Positions 6,369-42,509 of a DNA stretch of 64,000 nt are shown here, in pieces (the first letter of the stretch is position 1; each line of letters starts with the position of its first letter). This stretch comes from Magnetococcales bacterium DCbin4. Its GTDB lineage: Bacteria; Pseudomonadota; Magnetococcia; Magnetococcales; UBA8363. The notes beneath the pieces are model-generated. The model saw only the letters and a list, made by a program, of their open reading frames with translations, was not told the DNA's origin and ran no database searches. The DNA lies in assembly GCA_002753735.1 (NCBI GenBank), contig PEAN01000013.1, forward strand, positions 6,625 through 70,624. Reading direction: 5' to 3'. Both the position numbers and the translations under genes were made by a program.

Positions 6369-7690
6369 AACGATGGATTGCCTTTTGGCTGGTATGGATG
6401 GCGTGGACGGGTCCGGGACTTCTTCATGCGGCAACGTCCCTGGGAGAGGCTCGTTCCTTCCAGACCCGGGGGGGGATCCGGGTTTTTCTGGTGGAAAATC
6501 ATGCCAATCCCATGGTGGAAATCAACCTGCTCACCCGTGGGGGTTCGGCGTTTGATCCCAAAGGCAGGGATGGTGTGGCCTATCTGACGGCCTGGATGTT
6601 CAACGAAGGGGCGGGGGGGATGGATTCCGAAACCTTTCGTGCCCGTCTGGATGATCGTGGCATTCAAATGGATGGTAATGCCAACAGGGATACGCTGGAA
6701 GTCAACCTGACGACCCTTTCGGAGCATCTGGAAGAGGCGGTTCATCTGTTGGCCTTGGCGGTGACTGAACCTCGCTTCGATCCCAAGGATTTTGCCCGGG
6801 GGCAACAGGAATGCATTGCCAACGCAAAACAAAACCGTGAGCAGGCCGAGTGGCTGGCGGGGGTGCGGTTGAATGCCATGATGTTTGCCGGTCATCCGTA
6901 TGCGCATCCCCCTACCGGCACCGAAGAACCTTTGGCCCGGATCACCCTGAATGATGTCCGGCAATTCCATGTCAAAAGTTTCCGCGCACCTCAGATGGTG
7001 CTGGCGGTGGCTGGCGATGTGACCCCGTCGGCCCTCGAATCCTTGTTGGAACGGTATCTGGGGGGGGTCGATTCCCGTCCTTCACCGCATGGGGCGATCC
7101 CCGAGACCCCTTCGGCGAAGGTTGGGGAGGCCGTCCATCTGACGATGGAGAGTCCCCAGACGGCCATTCAGATGGGGCGGGTCGCCATGGACCGGGAGGA
7201 TGCCGATTATTATCCCATGCTGGTTTTGAATCAGCTTTTGGGTGGGCCCGGGTTGACCAGCCGTCTGAATCAGGAAATTCGAGAAAAGCGTGGATTGACC
7301 TATGGCGTTCACTCCCAGTTCAGCCCACTGGAGATGAAAGGTCCGTTCATGGTGATGATGAACACCAAGACCGAATCGGTTGCTGAAGCACTCGGTTTGA
7401 TTCGGGAACAGATGCGGATCGTCGTCAGGGAAGGGGTTGGGGAAGAGGAATTGACGGATGTCAAACGGTATCTGGTCCAATCTTTTCCCTTGAATCTTGA
7501 CACCTTGAAGAAGCAGGCTGCGACCTGGAGTCTGATTGGTTATTACCGGCGAGGTGTCGATTATTTGCGGCGTTGGCCCGAGCGGGTCGAGGGGGTACGC
7601 CGGGAGGATGTCGCCCGTGTGGCACGGCGCATGCTGGATCCAGACCATTACTTTACGGTAACCGTAGGCAAGCGTGCGGAAAAAAAATAA
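6365..7690 (+). CDS. M16 family peptidase-like protein, non-catalytic partner (secreted)
   Basis: This is a 441-residue secreted M16 homologue with a signal peptide (AFWLVWMAWTGPGLLHAA). At the place where HxxEH would be there is only AYLTAWMFNEGAGG, so the zinc site is absent. The C-terminal half retains the family hallmark of the non-catalytic subunit, an aromatic/basic substrate-binding segment around IGYYRRGVDYL. Pairs of one catalytic and one inactive M16 protein are common in Gram-negative bacteria and assemble as heterodimers. The ATGA overlap with the upstream gene supports stoichiometric expression. A dense block of palindromic repeats follows. Confidence 0.9.
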   Translation: MKRWIAFWLVWMAWTGPGLLHAATSLGEARSFQTRGGIRVFLVENHANPMVEINLLTRGGSAFDPKGRDGVAYLTAWMFNEGAGGMDSETFRARLDDRGIQMDGNANRDTLEVNLTTLSEHLEEAVHLLALAVTEPRFDPKDFARGQQECIANAKQNREQAEWLAGVRLNAMMFAGHPYAHPPTGTEEPLARITLNDVRQFHVKSFRAPQMVLAVAGDVTPSALESLLERYLGGVDSRPSPHGAIPETPSAKVGEAVHLTMESPQTAIQMGRVAMDREDADYYPMLVLNQLLGGPGLTSRLNQEIREKRGLTYGVHSQFSPLEMKGPFMVMMNTKTESVAEALGLIREQMRIVVREGVGEEELTDVKRYLVQSFPLNLDTLKKQAATWSLIGYYRRGVDYLRRWPERVEGVRREDVARVARRMLDPDHYFTVTVGKRAEKK

Positions 7691-33781: not shown

Positions 33782-33819
33782 TCATTGGTTATTTCAACGA
33801 TCATCAGGGGAATGCCGCC

Positions 33820-34137
33820 ATGAGCAACATCGTCAAAGTGCAGTTGGATGAAAAGACCACCTTTTATGCCGAAGTGGAGGATCGGCCCGAAAATGGATTA
33901 CAACAGGCTTCCCCCTCCATGACGGAGCAGGTTTCCGCCACGGTCAGTGAAGGGTTGGCGTCGATGCGTCCGGTCGTGCAGAAGGTGATGGAAACGTTTC
34001 GTGATCTTGGGCCGGAAGAATGCCAGGTGGAGTTCGGGCTGAAGATCAATGGCGAGGTGGGGATTTTTGTATCCAAAGGGGGGGCCGAGGCCCAGATCAA
34101 GGTTACCATGAAATGGAAGCGCGATCCCCGCTCATGA
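33820..34137 (+). CDS. Trypco1-like small protein (trypsin-co-occurring domain)
   Basis: This 105-residue acidic soluble protein has VKVQLDEKTTFYAEVED at the N terminus and LGPEECQVEFGLKINGEVGIFVSKG followed by AQIKVTMKW at the C terminus. That beta-rich pattern ending in the V.FG(L/I)K....G..I.K....A.I.V...W signature is the trypsin-co-occurring domain 1 family (also called CU044_2847 family). The family is found beside trypsin-like proteases in bacterial conflict systems. Here its stop overlaps the start of a trypsin-NACHT gene by ATGA, which matches that association. A role as protease substrate or adaptor is likely but unproven. AGGGGAA precedes the ATG. Confidence 0.82.
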   Translation: MSNIVKVQLDEKTTFYAEVEDRPENGLQQASPSMTEQVSATVSEGLASMRPVVQKVMETFRDLGPEECQVEFGLKINGEVGIFVSKGGAEAQIKVTMKWKRDPRS

Positions 34138-37100
34138 CCGATCCCAACCTTCCGGCACTTCATGGCGCTTTGGTTCATGTGCTTGCTTCAAATGGAAAAC
34201 GGTGTGGTATCGGTTTTCTGGTGGACCGGAAACGGGTATTGACCTGTGCCCATGTGGTGACCAACGCAGACCCGAATCTGCGCCAGGTACGACTTCGGTT
34301 CCCCTTCCTCAACCATGCCGAAATGATGGCCACGGTGAAATTTCTCTCTCCTGCGGCACCGCCGCCGGATGGAACCCGGACGGTCGCCAAAAACGATATT
34401 GCCGTGTTGCTATTGCCAGAGGATGCCCCTGATGGGAGCGATCCTGCCTGTCTTTTCATGGGAGAGGTGAACGATGGTGACCCGTGTTGGGTCCATGGCA
34501 TTCCCAACAAGGCCAACACCGGGGAACAATGGACCTCGGCCACCATCCATCCCTTGCAGGGCAATGGTTGGCGGGGTCTGTTCCCGGCCAACCCGAATAA
34601 ACCCATTGTCGGTGGTTACAGCGGTTCCCCGGTGACGACGACGCGGGGTCTGGTGTTGGGGATGGTGGTTGCCTTTGAGAACCCCAGCACCGAGGCATTC
34701 ATGATTCCAGCCCGTGTGTTGCGGGAGGTCTGCCCATCCCCGGAAAATTTGGTGGCAATTGAGCGCGAGCATCCCTATCTGAATCAGGGCGAGGCTTGCG
34801 AACTGGCACGCTATGCCCGTTGGGCCTTGAAAAAACATGGTGAACTGGAGTTGGTCGGTCTGGGTGGTGGCGACCTCCCCCTGGAACTGGAGGAGGTTTA
34901 TGTCCCCCTGCGTTTGGCCTTCCAGGGAATGCGGTGGGAACAGGGGGAAGGGCATTCCGGATCCGTGGAATTGCAGGATGTGTTTCGGCATTCCGCGAAC
35001 AAACCGGTCACACTCCTGGGACAACCGGGGTCCGGCAAGACCACCGCCTTGCGCAAAATGCTCTACCTGTGTCTGAAAGAAGGGGGGCAGATCCTTGGAC
35101 TGCCACCGGAGGTCTTGCCCGTATTTCTGCGCCTGCGCCGGTTTGATACCGCGCTTCTGGATCAACCGTTGGAATCTTTTATCGACATCGATCTGGCGGA
35201 AATGTCGGAAGGGGCGGACCTGCCGAAAGGGTTGGGCCAACGGTTGTGGCGGCGGGGTCATCTGCTGCTGTTATTCGATGGTCTGGATGAAATTTCCGAC
35301 CCCACTATGCGGCAACAGGTGGCTCAAAAACTTGAAAGGGAATTGTTCCAATCTTCTCACACGACAATCTGGATCGTGATTTCCAGCCGCATCGCCGGAT
35401 TCGAGCCGGTTCAGGAGCATTTTGGCAATACGTTTGGCTTTGAGGTTCAACCCTTGAATCCGAAACAAATCGAGCAGTTTGTCACCCTGTGGTTCAAGGC
35501 GGCGTTCATTAAACAGGAGCGAGGGACACCCGAGCAGGCACGGAAAAGCGCACAGGTTTTGTTGGATGGGTTGGGTCGGGAGGAAAACGCCAGTCGGCGC
35601 ATCCAGGGGCTGACCGGATCACCGCTGCTGTTGGCCCTGCTTTGCCTGGTGGTGTTGCAGGGGGGCGAGATTCCCCGGCGGCGGGTGGGGTTTTATGAAG
35701 AGTGCCTGCGGGTGTTGCTGCAACGATGGGGTGAAAAACAAAAGATGGAATCCCCCTTGTTGGACCTGGATATCGCCCAGGCGCTGCTTCAGTATGTGGC
35801 TTGGCATCTTCATGAAGCGGGACAACGGGATACCATGACCGGGAGTCAATTCGTCTTGTGGGCCGAGGATCGTCTGTTTGATTTGGGGTATCTCGCTGTG
35901 GATGGCTATGCCGTGTTGACGTGGCTGCATCATCGCACCGGGGTTTTCTCCGAATATGCGAAGGACCTTTATGGTTTCATGCACCTGGGATTTCAGGAAT
36001 ACCTGGCCGCCTGTCGTGTCGCCAGGGATCGGCAGCTATTGTCGGTTCTTTGTGGTCACGCTGGAGAACGATTTCATGGCGAAGATTGGTGGAAAGAGGT
36101 CATTTTGCTGCTGGCGGGGATGGCGGAACGGACCCTGTTTTGTGATCTGGTCGCAACCCTGTTGCCAAAGATCGAAGACTCCGAACGAGAAAATTTGTTG
36201 CGCAATTGTTTGGAGGAGGCCAAGGAGCCTGATCTGACCCCCTTTCTGGAACTGCTTCAGCCCAAGACCCCTTCTCCGGTATTGATGGCGGTATTGCGCA
36301 TCCTGAAAGGGGATCGGTGGCAAAGGGTTGCCGAATTGCAGCAACGGGTTGCCACCCTGAAACAGGCGACAACCGACCCCACCGTGAAGTATTTGTGCGA
36401 TCAGCTTTTGGCACCCCCCAAGGCCACGGACAAGGAATTTCATCTGCTGTTGATCCATGGGCCACAAGAGGCCGGGATCGTTCATGGGTGGCATCAAGAG
36501 TTGCACGGTCTTGGTTTGAATCTTTGGCCGGAACGCCAACCTTGGCGCAAAGAGATTCCACAGGTACGGCAAAAAGTCGCCGCCGCCGCTCTGTTCGTGG
36601 GTGCTTCCCCACCGCCATGGAGCGATCAACAGGTCGCCGAAGAACTTCAAGTTTTGGCCAACCGGATGAAACTATTTCTGGTTCCCTTGTCTGGGGCACC
36701 AAAACCCCTGTCGCTGCCATGGGACGCTACCTGCCCAACAGTCATCGATCCGCTTTCCCTGGCACAGGGGGTACGGGGAGCGGAAGGGACTTCCAAGATC
36801 GCCGAGTTGATTGAACCCAAAACCGGTCTCCGACTTTTGTTCATTTCTGGTGCGACGTTCACCATGGGCAGCGATGATCACGAACCTGACGAGCGCCCCG
36901 CTCATGAGGTACGATTGTCCGACTACTGGTTGGGGGAAACTCCGGTTACCAACGATCAGTATCGATGTTATCTCAGGGCTACCAAGGCTGGGGAACCTGA
37001 CTATTGGCGCAATCCTCGTTTTTCTGATCCGATGCAGCCGGTGGTCGGGGTCAGTTGGGACGATGCCCAGGCTTTTTGCCAATGGCTCAACGAGGGTTCC

Positions 37101-37535
37101 GGACAAAACTTCCGCTTTAACCTGCCCAGCGAGGCGCAATGGGAGTTTGCCGCCAGGGGGACCGATGGGCGGGACTATCCTTGGGGTAAAGAAGAACCGA
37201 CAAAAGAGCGTGCCTGCTTCGGTCAGCAATCTTCTTACGGCAAACCTGCACTCGTGGGCAGTTTCCCCGATGGGCGCGGTCCGTTTGGCCACCTGGATTT
37301 GGCGGGCAATGTGTGGGAATGGTGTTTGGATGGATGGAGTGCGGACTATCGATGGTGTACGGAGAAGAAAAAATTCAACCCGATGGGGCCTGGACGTGAT
37401 ATGAGGATTCTCCGGGGCGGGTCCTGGTTCAATCCTGCCGATCTCCTGCGTGCGGCCTATCGCCGCGGGAACCTTGCCGGGCTCCGGCGCGGCGTTGTCG
37501 GTTTCCGGGTGGCCGCTGCGCCCGCGCGCCTTTGA
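34134..37535 (+). CDS. Trypsin-NACHT-(TIR-like)-FGE protein with DGR-type variable C terminus
   Basis: This is a 1133-residue multidomain protein. Residues 1-200: trypsin-like serine protease with His40 (LTCAHVV), Asp88 (KNDIAVLL) and Ser163 (GYSGSP), a complete triad and no signal peptide. Residues ~285-640: NACHT/STAND NTPase, Walker A GQPGSGKTTAL (296-306), Walker B LLLLFDGLDEI (377-387). Residues ~640-760: helical repeat-like region. Residues ~766-890: an alpha/beta segment (HLLLIHGPQEAGIVHGWHQE) resembling a TIR-like domain. Residues ~895-1133: formylglycine-generating-enzyme/C-type-lectin fold (FTMGSDD, LPSEAQWEFAARG, LAGNVWEWCLDGW, RGGSWF, GFRVA). The last 41 codons form a putative variable region. 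I infer an intracellular ligand sensor that activates a protease. Confidence 0.88.
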   Translation: MTDPNLPALHGALVHVLASNGKRCGIGFLVDRKRVLTCAHVVTNADPNLRQVRLRFPFLNHAEMMATVKFLSPAAPPPDGTRTVAKNDIAVLLLPEDAPDGSDPACLFMGEVNDGDPCWVHGIPNKANTGEQWTSATIHPLQGNGWRGLFPANPNKPIVGGYSGSPVTTTRGLVLGMVVAFENPSTEAFMIPARVLREVCPSPENLVAIEREHPYLNQGEACELARYARWALKKHGELELVGLGGGDLPLELEEVYVPLRLAFQGMRWEQGEGHSGSVELQDVFRHSANKPVTLLGQPGSGKTTALRKMLYLCLKEGGQILGLPPEVLPVFLRLRRFDTALLDQPLESFIDIDLAEMSEGADLPKGLGQRLWRRGHLLLLFDGLDEISDPTMRQQVAQKLERELFQSSHTTIWIVISSRIAGFEPVQEHFGNTFGFEVQPLNPKQIEQFVTLWFKAAFIKQERGTPEQARKSAQVLLDGLGREENASRRIQGLTGSPLLLALLCLVVLQGGEIPRRRVGFYEECLRVLLQRWGEKQKMESPLLDLDIAQALLQYVAWHLHEAGQRDTMTGSQFVLWAEDRLFDLGYLAVDGYAVLTWLHHRTGVFSEYAKDLYGFMHLGFQEYLAACRVARDRQLLSVLCGHAGERFHGEDWWKEVILLLAGMAERTLFCDLVATLLPKIEDSERENLLRNCLEEAKEPDLTPFLELLQPKTPSPVLMAVLRILKGDRWQRVAELQQRVATLKQATTDPTVKYLCDQLLAPPKATDKEFHLLLIHGPQEAGIVHGWHQELHGLGLNLWPERQPWRKEIPQVRQKVAAAALFVGASPPPWSDQQVAEELQVLANRMKLFLVPLSGAPKPLSLPWDATCPTVIDPLSLAQGVRGAEGTSKIAELIEPKTGLRLLFISGATFTMGSDDHEPDERPAHEVRLSDYWLGETPVTNDQYRCYLRATKAGEPDYWRNPRFSDPMQPVVGVSWDDAQAFCQWLNEGSGQNFRFNLPSEAQWEFAARGTDGRDYPWGKEEPTKERACFGQQSSYGKPALVGSFPDGRGPFGHLDLAGNVWEWCLDGWSADYRWCTEKKKFNPMGPGRDMRILRGGSWFNPADLLRAAYRRGNLAGLRRGVVGFRVAAAPARL
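37413..37535 (+). other. Putative DGR variable region VR1
   Basis: The DNA from CGGGGCGGGTCCTGG to the stop is almost identical to the end of the facing gene (38231-38353), while sequence upstream and downstream is not. Over 123 bases there are 13 differences; 11 are at codon positions 1 or 2 and change nine amino acids. Seven of the changed codons lie within 12 consecutive codons (37492-back to 37462 or so). Six of the 11 sites have A in one copy. This is what adenine-directed mutagenic retrohoming of a DGR produces. The GC-rich 3' end could serve as the homing-initiation site. Confidence 0.75.
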
Positions 37536-37562
37536 TCCTTGGATTTTATTGATTTTTTTTGT

Positions 37563-37581
37563 CCAGGGGCGTAGCCCCTGG
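37563..37581. other. Hairpin downstream of VR1
   Basis: CCAGGGGC-GTA-GCCCCTGG is a perfect 8-bp stem with a 3-nt loop, 27 nt after the stop codon. It has no T-run after it on either strand, so it does not look like a classical terminator. Short hairpins just after the variable region are known target-recognition elements in DGRs. Confidence 0.6.
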
Positions 37582-37622
37582 TCGCCATCATCGTATGGCT
37601 TTTAGTTCCGCTTGCGTCCATG

Positions 37623-38018
37623 TCATGAATGGGGTTCCAATATCTCCTCGGCAGCCCGGGCCAGAAACCCGGACCGGCTCATGTGGTGTGCCTTGGCGTA
37701 ACCATCAATGCGGCGCACCAGGGGTTCCGGAAGGGTGACGTTGAAGCGCAGGGATTTGGGGCTGATGTGTGCTGGATCAATGTCTACCAGCATCCATACC
37801 CCGCCCTGGAACGCTTCCTTTGCGACCAGTTCCTCCAGCGGGCTGGGGGGCGGGATGTTCAAGTCTTCGCCGTCAAAGTGGACTTCAACCGCTTCCCGGA
37901 CCATGGCCGGGATCATGTCCCAGGCGTCGGCGGCAGAGAAACAGCAGGGGAAGTCGGGGATGGTGATGCCGTGCGCGTGATCTTCATCCCCCATATGGAC
38001 GTACACCGGATAAAGCAT
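37623..38018 (-). CDS. HicB-like antitoxin (orphan)
   Basis: This is a 131-residue protein. The N-terminal half is the HicB partial RNase-H fold: MLYPVYVHMGDEDHAHGITI, then PDFPCCFSAADAWDMIPAMVREAV. The C-terminal half is a ribbon-helix-helix DNA-binding domain: LRFNVTLPEPLVRRIDGYAKAH, then MSRSGFLARAAEEIL. HicB normally neutralises the HicA mRNA interferase encoded next to it. No intact hicA is present. The start at 38018 has GGAGGGGAAC directly upstream. The in-frame ATG at 38072 would fuse a 15-codon HicA-like leader. The gene lies between the two NACHT-FGE genes. Confidence 0.85.
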   Translation of the reverse strand: MLYPVYVHMGDEDHAHGITIPDFPCCFSAADAWDMIPAMVREAVEVHFDGEDLNIPPPSPLEELVAKEAFQGGVWMLVDIDPAHISPKSLRFNVTLPEPLVRRIDGYAKAHHMSRSGFLARAAEEILEPHS

Positions 38019-38021
38019 GTT

Positions 38022-38072
38022 CCCCTCCATTCCCAACCGGCGAAGACGATTGATGATGTCCGCACTATTCAT
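38022..38072 (-). pseudogene. Possible remnant of hicA (first ~15 codons)
   Basis: From the ATG at 38072 the frame reads MNSADIINRLRRLGMEG, resembling the usual N terminus of HicA toxins (M.S.D.I..L...GW). It then runs directly into the hicB ribosome-binding site. The rest of hicA, including the catalytic His region, is absent. An internal in-frame deletion of the toxin is the simplest explanation. Confidence 0.45.
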
Positions 38073-38192
38073 GCTGGGGATTATTCCACGCTCAGACAAG
38101 ATGACAAAGAGGGAATGATGTTGGATGATATAATGTAACGAAAAAAATATAAAATATCATCAAAATAAATATTTATTATAAAATTTCCGCTA

Positions 38193-38210
38193 ACATGGCC
38201 ACGCCAATGT
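38193..38210. other. Imperfect hairpin downstream of VR2
   Basis: On the plus strand ACATGGC-CAC-GCCAATGT forms a 7-bp stem with one bulged base and a 3-nt loop. It lies 20 nt after the stop of the cyclase-NACHT-FGE gene (minus strand). Its position and loop size match the hairpin after VR1, although the sequence differs. The region around it (38130-38190) is very A+T rich. Confidence 0.45.
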
Positions 38211-38230
38211 ATCAATCAAATTAATAATGA

Positions 38231-38353
38231 TCAAAGGCTCGCGGGCGCAACGGCCACCCGGAAACCGAAAATGTCGTCCCGGAGCCCGGCAAGGTCCCTG
38301 AAGCGATAGGCCGCACGCAGGAGATCAGCGGGATTGAACCAGGACCCGCCCCG
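38231..38353 (-). other. Putative DGR variable region VR2
   Basis: This is the counterpart of VR1 in the facing gene. Encoded residues at the changed sites are F-R-D ... D-D-I-F here against R-G-N ... R-G-V-V in VR1, and V and S against A and R at the very end. The unchanged flanks encode RGGSWF and GFRVA, the conserved edges of the FGE/C-lectin ligand pocket. VR1 and VR2 are in inverted orientation about 0.7 kb apart. Confidence 0.75.
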
Positions 38354-41293
38354 CAGAACCAGTCTGTCATCTTTGGTGACAACCGGGTCCGGCAACGTTT
38401 CTTCCAGGGGCGGCAGATTATCTTGATAGATCGTATGCTGCCATTCCCAGATGTTGCCCGCAAGGTCGCTGTGGCCACAAGGTCCATCTCCCGCCGGATA
38501 AATCCCCACCGGCGTGGGTGCCCCGACGTTGCGATTGAAATTGGCCAAATCGGGAGTTGGTTCGGGCGTACCCCACGGATAGCCTCCGGTCGATGGTTGG
38601 GCCGCCTTCTGCCATAAGACTTCGGCAGGGAGGCAGAGTTTCATTTTCTTCTGGTCGCTCAACCAGCGGCAATAGGCCATGGCTTCAAACCAGGAGACCC
38701 CGGTGACCGGGCGGGTGGGGTACTGGAGCTGTGCATCCCATTCTTCTGGCGTCGTCCAGCCTCGTTTGTCTCGTATTCTTGACCACTGCTCATCCCACCA
38801 GCGGGGATCCCGGTAGCCATCGCCATGGTCCACAAACTCTTGATATTCCATCACCGTAACCGGAAATTTCCGCAGTCGCCAACCGCCGGTTCCGGGAACC
38901 TCGATCAGGTACTTCGGATCGGCAAACAGTTCCCGGGCCAGGCGCGGATCACCGCCCCGGCCCAACGCCTCGGCCGCTGCGATGCGATCAGTGATTGGAA
39001 CCTGGGCTGCACCTTCGAGGGTAAATATTTTCAGCACCTGGGTCATGATTTCGTGTTCGGGTTCGCGTATTTGTGGGGGGATACTGTAGCCGTAGACCCC
39101 CAGCGGGGCCAGCAAACACCCCAGAATACCCGCAACCTTGGCATCCTGGGCCAGAGTGTGCTGTTCACCACGCTCGGCGAGTACCCGGTTGAGCAGAAGA
39201 TCCACCCGCCGCCGTCCCCCTTCGTCAAACAGGGCACCCGGAAAAAATTCCACTGTCTCCCGCCATTGGGAATCGTCCAGCCGGGGTTGAATGACCGGCC
39301 ACCAATCCTCTGTGGGATCTTCTCCATCACCTAAAAAAGTTAGGGCATAGGCTGCCAGATATTCCTGGAAGGTGAGGTGCCAAAATTTCAATCTTTGGTC
39401 GCCCAACTCCTCCACAATGCCACTGTTCAGACATTCAAATACCAACCATTGTCGGCCAAGGCGTACCTGATCCGCATTTTTCTTTAATGAAGGAAAAAAT
39501 CGCGCCACCAGGGGTTGGATCACTTCAGCCCCATCCTGCACCTCGTACACCACGTTTTTTTTGTTGTCCTTGCCGATCATCATGGCCAGGGCCAGGGTGG
39601 CAAAGGCTTCGAACACAAACCGACTTTCATCCACCCGTTCCATCGCGTCGCCCAACCCCGGTTGGCGCTGGAACCAGGATTGGCGTTGTCTCCGACGGGC
39701 GTCGATCAGCCAGCGCAACACCGCCTGATAGACGCGGGAGCGCCCCTCCGGCAGCCGCCCTTCGTTCCAGTGGATCACGCACAGGCAGGTGAGCATCACC
39801 GGATTGGCGGCCAACAACCGGATGGTCGGTCGGTCCAGAATGGCTTGTTGCAACGTGTGGCGATCCGTGCGCGCATGGGTTTCTTCCCCGATCAGCGCCG
39901 TCACCCAACGGTCGATGAATGCCCGAATCTGGTCATGGCCAAAGGGATCGATCACGACATGTTCAAACCCGTGCTGGCGCAACGCCGCCGCACCGAAGGG
40001 GCGACTGGTCACGATCAGGGGACATCGGTGCCAGTGTTTGGCTGCATCATGAAAAATGGCGAAAAGACGATCCCGCGCCGATGCTTCCGTCACCTCGTCC
40101 AACCCGTCCAACAACAGGATCACCTTTCCCTCATCCAGCAAGTGTTCAATCACCGCCCGACCGCCGGGGGGCAGTTCCGTGGTCTTTTCCAGTAAATCCA
40201 GCAATCGGTGGCGGGTGTCATGGGTGTTTTGCAAACCGTGGGTTTCCAGTTGCGACAGCCGCAGAAAAAGGGGAAACAAGACTTCGCCCGTCAATCCCAG
40301 ATAATGATGACGCCAGGTATCGCCATTGGGGCCGGGAATATCCAGCCAATCCTTGGCCAGCATGGCGGCGGTGAGGCGCAAAAAGGTGGTCTTGCCCGCC
40401 CCCGGTTGCCCTTCGATCAGCAGGCGGGGCGCCTTGGGGCGCAGATCGGACAACCGGACCGTGCTTCCCCATCCCCCGTTGTGCCGTTTCTCTATGCCGC
40501 TGCGGCTGCGCAATTCGGTATAAAGCTGTTCGATGTCGCAAAACATCGCTTCCCGACCGCGCCCCACCCCGGAACTGATGCCACGAAGTTCCAGTTTGCC
40601 AACACGTTCCAGCAATTCGCTCATCCAGGGGCGCAGATCGGTGACCTCGGTGGCGACTTTGGGAACCGCCTGGGGATTTCCCTCGATGATCTTGGCGATT
40701 TTTTCCTGGGTTTCCTGGATGTATCCTGGCAAGAGTTTATTATCTTTGATCGGAAATTCAACCCGTGTCCAAATCCATTCGGCGGGGATCGCCACTTCCG
40801 GGCTGTTTTTGCCGGGGTGCCGCTGCCAATCATCCATGAACCATGTGGAGGTCACCAGCACCAGGGGACGTTCTGGACGCTGTGCCAACAATATTCGGGG
40901 CCAGGGGTGGTCCACCAGCCGGTTGAGTTCGGTTTTGGCGGGGGAAAGGGCATGCTGGCCAACCGCCTCCACATTGCCCAATGCCAACCCGACCCGCAAT
41001 CGCAGGGGGGCGTTCGGGAACCGGGCATTGTCGGTCTCCAGTGCCCGTTCCAGATCCACGGCAAAACGCATCGCTTCTGGTGAGGAATATCCCTCCATGG
41101 GGATGTAATACCCATCCCCGGTGCTTTGCCAGGCAAATGCCCGACGCGGATCCACCCGGCCGGTGAAGGTTCTGAGTACCTTGACCAGGATGTCATCGAG
41201 ACGCAGCAGAATGTCCCGTTGTTCCGATACGGTCTTCAACCGGGAAAAACCGGCCATGTCGATCAGAATAATGGGAACAGGGGGGTCGTTCAT
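38231..41293 (-). CDS. Nucleotidyl-cyclase-like-NACHT-FGE protein with DGR-type variable C terminus
   Basis: This is a 1020-residue protein. Residues 1-190: class III nucleotidyl-cyclase-like domain, with the metal Asp12 in ILIDMAGFS and Asp60 in QSTGDGYYI. The later N..AR motif of canonical cyclases is not obvious, so activity or product is uncertain. Residues ~290-640: NACHT NTPase with Walker A EGQPGAGKTTFL (294-305) and Walker B VILLLDGLDEV (391-401). Residues ~795-1020: FGE/C-lectin fold (FPVTVMEYQEF, VTGVSWFEAMAYCRWL, DLAGNIWEWQ, RGGSWF, GFRVA). It shares the sensor half with the trypsin-NACHT protein and differs in its effector head. Probably cytoplasmic. Its 3' end faces the other gene. 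Confidence 0.87.
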   Translation of the reverse strand: MNDPPVPIILIDMAGFSRLKTVSEQRDILLRLDDILVKVLRTFTGRVDPRRAFAWQSTGDGYYIPMEGYSSPEAMRFAVDLERALETDNARFPNAPLRLRVGLALGNVEAVGQHALSPAKTELNRLVDHPWPRILLAQRPERPLVLVTSTWFMDDWQRHPGKNSPEVAIPAEWIWTRVEFPIKDNKLLPGYIQETQEKIAKIIEGNPQAVPKVATEVTDLRPWMSELLERVGKLELRGISSGVGRGREAMFCDIEQLYTELRSRSGIEKRHNGGWGSTVRLSDLRPKAPRLLIEGQPGAGKTTFLRLTAAMLAKDWLDIPGPNGDTWRHHYLGLTGEVLFPLFLRLSQLETHGLQNTHDTRHRLLDLLEKTTELPPGGRAVIEHLLDEGKVILLLDGLDEVTEASARDRLFAIFHDAAKHWHRCPLIVTSRPFGAAALRQHGFEHVVIDPFGHDQIRAFIDRWVTALIGEETHARTDRHTLQQAILDRPTIRLLAANPVMLTCLCVIHWNEGRLPEGRSRVYQAVLRWLIDARRRQRQSWFQRQPGLGDAMERVDESRFVFEAFATLALAMMIGKDNKKNVVYEVQDGAEVIQPLVARFFPSLKKNADQVRLGRQWLVFECLNSGIVEELGDQRLKFWHLTFQEYLAAYALTFLGDGEDPTEDWWPVIQPRLDDSQWRETVEFFPGALFDEGGRRRVDLLLNRVLAERGEQHTLAQDAKVAGILGCLLAPLGVYGYSIPPQIREPEHEIMTQVLKIFTLEGAAQVPITDRIAAAEALGRGGDPRLARELFADPKYLIEVPGTGGWRLRKFPVTVMEYQEFVDHGDGYRDPRWWDEQWSRIRDKRGWTTPEEWDAQLQYPTRPVTGVSWFEAMAYCRWLSDQKKMKLCLPAEVLWQKAAQPSTGGYPWGTPEPTPDLANFNRNVGAPTPVGIYPAGDGPCGHSDLAGNIWEWQHTIYQDNLPPLEETLPDPVVTKDDRLVLRGGSWFNPADLLRAAYRFRDLAGLRDDIFGFRVAVAPASL

Positions 41294-42319: not shown

Positions 42320-42358
42320 GGATCCGTCCTGTCAAATGATTCAAAACGATAAAAAATT

Positions 42359-42509
42359 ATCAAAAGAAAAAAGGGGGCTGGGGGACTGCCCCCAGGGTGT
42401 TGATTTTGTTTTCAAATCCAAACAAAAAGGTTTCCATGATCAAGCTTTTGACTGTGTTTTCAAAGTCAAAACCCCAGGTGCCATCCCCCAGCCCCATTTC
42501 CCTTTGAAT
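42359..42509. repeat. Paired inverted repeat between the GNAT and exonuclease genes
   Basis: The left unit (42359-42405) has A-run, GGGGGCTGGGGGACTGCCCC, CAGGGTGTTGATTTTG. The right unit (42461-42509) is its inverse: CAAAGTCAAAACCCCAGGTG, CCATCCCCCAGCCCC, then TTTCCCTTTGAATTC. The arms are more diverged than in the other blocks. It fills half of the 304-base gap 42320-42623; in the rest (42510-42623) I see nothing I can name. Confidence 0.75.

Follow-up and report, generated by a model that had tools for sequence, protein, structure and literature searches.

To our knowledge, the experimental case for a role of a hairpin in DGR homing comes from one phage element only, that of BPP-1. In this element a stem-loop located 3' of the VR is needed for efficient homing, and in the BPP-1-type phage DGRs this structure has a 4-nt GRNA loop and is found 4–34 nt past the VR (PMC3240598). 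In a reconstruction carried out in E. coli, homing was found to depend on the stem-loop to an important, though not a strict, extent (PMC12875486). DGR targets of the FGE/STAND type occur in multicellular bacteria, such as Thiohalocapsa PB-PSB1, and the words hairpin and cruciform are absent from the text of the paper describing them (PMC10907252). In the open-licence PMC literature, no report of DGRs in Magnetococcales was found.

The 64-kb stretch of Magnetococcales DNA that was analysed in this work (referred to below as the window) contains two convergent FGE genes. The first of these (34128–37535, + strand) encodes a trypsin–NACHT–FGE (C-type-lectin-like) protein (Pfam FGE 4.4e-49, NACHT 7.4e-13, Trypsin_2 1.6e-10), whose variable region comprises the final ~125 nt of the gene, and directly 5' of it is a gene for a small protein of the CU044_2847 family (33808–34137, + strand; NCBIfam NF041216, 6.7e-20). 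The second (38231–41293, − strand) encodes a NACHT–FGE protein (Pfam FGE 4e-36, NACHT 7e-10). In both genes the FGE domain extends to the C-terminus, and the variable part of this scaffold lies near that end. The likeness to Thiohalocapsa PB-PSB1 includes a variable FGE domain at the C-terminus of STAND-type proteins and the trypsin-like partner, and also the presence of incomplete loci and remote targets, some of which are diversified in trans (PMC10907252). VR1 (37408–37540, + strand) and its convergent partner VR2 (38226–38358, − strand) are 89% identical in DNA, and this identity is limited to ~130 bp at the 3' ends of the genes, the FGE domain upstream being ~50% identical. Of the 11 core differences between VR1 and VR2, eight are at columns that contain an A in the TRs of the family (25 of 99 columns; p = 6e-4), where the A-columns were taken from the TRs of relatives, as the cognate TR is absent from the assembly. 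Based upon this distribution, it is very likely that the pair was diversified by a DGR in the past.

The gap of 695 bp between VR1 and VR2 contains a solitary HicB-like (RHH-containing) gene (37623–38099, − strand; Pfam HicB_lk_antitox, 9.2e-42), whereas in the relatives described below 2–3 kb consisting of HTH, avd, TR and RT are present at this place. Remnants of an RT or of the HTH accessory gene were not detected between VR1 and VR2 by tblastn, and neither a cognate TR nor a cognate RT was found in the assembly (96% complete, 148 contigs). An RT, a TR and an accessory gene (avd or HRDC) serving VR1 and VR2 were thus found neither nearby nor elsewhere in the genome, and homing at this locus is accordingly only putative. 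A core is possibly inside an assembly gap, and the two VRs may still be served in trans by a core absent from the assembly. Convergent pairs of FGE variable genes with no DGR core between them are also seen on C143 of the same genome and in two relatives (G003 C189 and G006 C6). Such pairs, at L013 3935–4397, L182 4776–5761 and L177 3512–4210, suggest that the core was lost or moved repeatedly. A dispersed repeat of ~110 bp, which begins near gggggctgggggactgccccc, is present at 42350–42460 of the window; dozens of copies of it, some as inverted pairs, occur in several genomes of the same genus, and a comparison of right-flank synteny with the relatives was swamped by this repeat.

The sequence 3' of the VR1 stop (position 37535) reads TCCTTGGATTTTATTGATTTTTTTTGTCCAGGGGCGTAGCCCCTGGTCGCC. 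It contains, beginning 27 nt from the stop, the inverted repeat CCAGGGGC-GTA-GCCCCTGG (37563–37581, + strand), a candidate homing element with a perfect 8-bp stem, in which seven of the eight pairs are G-C, and a GNA triloop. The 8-bp stem and 3-nt loop without a T-run after it, which were described in the initial annotation, are thus confirmed. When folded as DNA, the hairpin has an energy of −9.7 kcal/mol, with z-scores of −4.2 (65 nt) and −4.6 (36 nt), and none of the dinucleotide shuffles was as good. Nine places in the window, this one included, have a perfect stem that reaches at least 8 bp and encloses a 3–5 nt loop, and such a stem at the same offset is seen in 0.4% of random 75-mers. 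Perfect matches to CCAGGGGCNNAGCCCCTGG number only two in the 4.52-Mb genome, each of them located 3' of an FGE-type variable gene, and no match was obtained when the window was compared with Rfam. We consider that this inverted repeat is a DGR target-site homing hairpin that works as DNA, and assign to this reading a probability of roughly 0.78.

The hairpin is GC-rich and is located shortly 3' of a stop codon between convergent genes, a setting in which a transcription terminator, possibly a bidirectional one, could be expected. However, a T-run follows the stem on neither strand; on the + strand a T-run instead precedes it, and the stem is followed by TCGCCATC, so that the combination of a stem with a T-run is lacking. 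As no T-run follows, it is not an intrinsic terminator. A terminator consensus scan also did not recover this hairpin, and the two weak terminator-like sites that it returned compare with 1.4 expected; the intrinsic terminator was rejected on these two grounds, the missing T-run and a scan at chance level. Further, the left copy of the hairpin in the relatives is situated between target and accessory genes of the same strand, and the loss of the hairpin at orphan genes (see below) would be unexpected for a terminator, which would still be needed there. A role in termination is therefore quite improbable.

The situation downstream of VR2 is different. The imperfect stem that had been noted here is present 20 nt from the VR2 stop at 38231 (38193–38210, − strand; ACATTGGC GTG GCCATGT, with one bulge), but it does not rise above chance. 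Its energy is −3.3 kcal/mol, and its z-score over 65 nt is −0.28, with 77 of 200 shuffles as good; for a short piece the corresponding values are −1.7 and 15 of 200. At a z-score of −0.28, VR2 lacks a GC-rich inverted repeat of the kind found 3' of the VR in BPP-1. The 3' flanks of VR1 and VR2 can be aligned beyond the stop, the match extending to 37553, and in an alignment of the two the sequence GGCGT-GGCC of VR2 falls under GGGGCGTAGCCCC of VR1. The description of the two hairpins in the initial annotation as unrelated in sequence but equal in geometry is hence doubtful, and with the VR2 stem at chance level its suggestion that structure was conserved at VR2 is unsupported. In view of the alignment past the stop, it is more plausible that the VR2 stem derives from a counterpart of the VR1 hairpin that has decayed and was probably displaced by a 7-nt deletion. 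In our reading, VR1 and VR2 are an orphaned or relict target pair, in which the VR1 hairpin has been kept and that of VR2 largely lost.

Related cassettes were searched for with the DNA of VR1 and then with the hairpin-free TR alone. Complete cassettes, which we refer to as family A, were found in G004, G005, G006, G007, and G026. They are arranged as FGE target (+), HTH ORF, avd, TR, RT (YMDD) and FGE target (−), or the mirror image of this. The Magnetococcales as host order, and convergent targets that enclose an HTH-avd-TR-RT core, set them apart from Thiohalocapsa PB-PSB1. The Avd proteins of these cassettes were identified by NF033474 (8e-13), the PHROG 'Avd protein of DGR' (2e-10) and bAvd (4e-11). 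Differences between VR and TR in the relatives are present at A residues of the TR only (19/19, 15/15, 14/14, 11/11, and 11/11), with a less clean result for VRa of G005, which contains a block of non-A differences from its TR. An additional search of the genome contigs with an RT alignment retrieved three loci, in G005, G004 and G007, and no further cassette. An HTH_17-like ORF of ~230 aa is present 5' of avd (L110 5647–6345, with equivalents in L111, L112, L116, and L176), which is unlike the layout of BPP-1, where this ORF is not found. All five family-A cassettes also contain a conserved inverted repeat, GCCCGTTCTCGTAGG...CCGAGCGTCCGGGC, between the TR and the RT (L110 ~6970–7020, and at the same place after the TR in L111, L112, L116, and L176); within the TR RNA it likely forms a structured spacer by which RT-Avd is recruited.

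The distribution of the hairpin was examined by scoring perfect stems of at least 7 bp with a loop of 3–5 nt that start 15–45 nt past the stop. Such a hairpin was found at 10 of 10 core-adjacent VRs, where it starts 26–30 nt past the stop, versus 5 of 22 orphan VRs (Fisher 4.7e-5), although the core-adjacent VR pairs share ancestry and the counts are in this respect non-independent trials. If a third VR of G007, which has the broken stem GGCCAGTTGGCTTGCTCAATGG, is counted in, the orphans become 5 of 23, and for the targets retrieved with the TR-only query the corresponding values are 10 of 10 versus 3 of 17. Comparable stems are present 3' of 14 of 221 other ORFs. The orphan copies mostly retain recognisable remains in which pairs are broken, as in GTCCAGGGGATGAAGCTCAATGG, ATCCAGGGACGAACCCCATGG, and GTCCAGGGGGCGAAGCCTATTGG. 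A target on C151 of G026, which has apparently been served recently (TR match 0.98), is without a hairpin; an ungapped TR-match value of 0.37 for G006b, which is probably an indel artefact, was left out of the evidence. At a target of a third type (G022 C1), a 6-bp stem lies at a distance of 30 nt from the stop, and no stem was seen at two other target types (G008 C202 and G005 C7). In agreement with what the initial annotation had anticipated for other FGE-type DGR targets of this kind, the hairpin is thus present at the same position at all of the core-adjacent ones, and the inverted repeats of a second DGR described below are found at 31 nt. Of the two findings that would have spoken against its proposal, a lack of hairpins at other targets and a terminator signature at 37563–37581, neither applies to VR1.

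The stems of this family are CCAGGGC, CCAGGGGC, CCAGGGGG(C) or GTCCAGGGGGC, all with the full complement; they are 7–11 bp long, and both sides change together so that the pairing is kept. The loops among the relatives are GTA, GAA or GCA (i.e., GNA), or CTTG. At the matching place after the TRs of this order the hairpin was found in 0 of 11 cases, and it therefore lies, as in BPP-1 and other phage DGRs, outside the TR/VR homology and is absent after the template. The TR of G006 is followed by a different 7-bp stem, GGCGCAA-AGGT-TTGCGCC, which is located ~40 nt into the region after the TR. These observations also bear upon the possibility that the structure acts in the mRNA, as a 3' hairpin shielding the target transcript from exonucleases. 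In favour of this are its stability and its location within the 3' UTR, and the RNA would fold too. However, GNA triloops are a known class of DNA minihairpins (work cited in PMC11101458), and absence after TRs together with retention mainly in the presence of an intact core points to homing rather than expression. We regard a function in the mRNA as highly improbable.

Palindromes with the core TCCAGGG...CCCTGG, some with GAA loops, are abundant in several Magnetococcales genomes, often in arrays (G037, G041, G023, and partly G006), with counts of 517+446 in G037 and 130+111 in G041. Examples such as TCCAGGGGGATCATCCCCCTGG paired with TCCAGGGGCAAAGCCCCTGG, both dispersed and in tandem, resemble the DGR hairpin (G006 C9:45932, C35:7800 and C7:50944; also G041, G023, and G037). 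Some of the dispersed palindromes are near-identical to the VR hairpin, and the latter could thus be a REP-like element that landed there by chance and has no function in the DGR. Against this, no copy of the long perfect GNA form lies anywhere but after a VR in G000, G004, and G005; the distance of 26–30 nt is constant at 10 of 10 core-adjacent VRs, while most orphans have lost the stem; and another DGR family has unrelated inverted repeats at the same place. Unlike the VR hairpin, the REP-like palindromes are dispersed or in tandem and have no fixed distance to a VR. A genome-wide repeat was rejected as an explanation, as the exact form of the hairpin is found only after VRs in the genome of the window, even though some relatives are rich in palindromes of a related kind. 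A chance landing is accordingly unlikely. As the hairpin sequence is common to the REP-like family, a REP origin is possible, and the homing hairpin may possibly have been derived from this family.

A profile search of the genome with PF03781 revealed 20 FGE stretches, and one with RVT_1 revealed two RTs, on C8 and C110. The contig C8 (L011 5500–8600) contains a complete second DGR, with an HRDC-domain accessory gene, a TR, and two FGE targets, in which all VR-TR differences are confined to adenines (17/17 and 15/15). Its TR does not match VR1 or VR2, and its RT is the only DGR RT found in the genome. The RT on C110, which was considered as the missing core, looks from its sequence like a group II intron RT; no TR was seen on the stretch examined, and the contig does not extend past the RT. 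At both targets of C8 a long inverted repeat, with a sequence unrelated to that of the VR1 hairpin, starts 31 nt past the stop. Between the two G007 copies of this C8-type family there is a single compensatory pair change (TCCGG/CCGGA to TTCGG/CCGAA), besides one uncompensated change.

The hairpins described here share several features with those of BPP-1 and other phage DGRs. A GC-rich inverted repeat with a stem of 7–10 bp is present 3' of the VR, as is the case for VR1; the sequence of the stem varies while its pairing is kept; and in the GNA copies a G opens the loop and an A closes it, as read on the coding strand. They differ in their loop, which is a 3-nt GNA (GTA in VR1) or CTTG, in contrast to the 4-nt GRNA, and in that the targets are chromosomal NACHT-FGE genes, the window being without a core, rather than a phage fibre. 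Where a known TR allowed a clean measurement in the relatives, the hairpin is 38–43 nt beyond the end of the TR/VR homology, in contrast to 4–34 nt in BPP-1; for VR1 the spacing is given by the distance of 27 nt from the stop only. The BPP-1-like homing role put forward initially thus agrees with the results for core-adjacent targets, but the hairpin is not located directly after the VR as that of BPP-1 is.

In terms of mechanism, the RT-Avd complex of the ancestral cassette would have made cDNA from the TR RNA, with errors at adenines, and this cDNA would then substitute for the VR with which the FGE gene ends. The GC-rich inverted repeat ~40 nt beyond the VR end, which is present at targets and not after the TR, would extrude as a hairpin or cruciform, keep the target open and mark it as the recipient. 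The extrusion of a cruciform and its role in homing here are inferred by analogy with BPP-1. GNA loops give rise to extraordinarily stable DNA minihairpins, according to work (Yoshizawa 1997; Hirao 1994) cited in PMC11101458. We put forward, as a tentative and rather doubtful proposal, that these structures are a distinct class of homing hairpins, which carry an ultrastable GNA triloop of DNA at ~40 nt from the VR end and which are possibly REP-derived and read by the extra HTH accessory protein. If such a class exists, the decay at orphans would be natural evidence of a hairpin kept only for retrohoming.

The results described here provide a natural experiment in one bacterial lineage, in which core-adjacent targets all possess the hairpin and orphans are mostly without it. 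Together with the presence of unrelated inverted repeats at the same place in a second DGR family of the same order, this supports a general requirement, and the GNA loop and longer spacing offer a second hairpin type for comparison with BPP-1. The state of the hairpin is also suggested as a marker, based upon sequence only, by which live DGR targets may be distinguished from dead ones.
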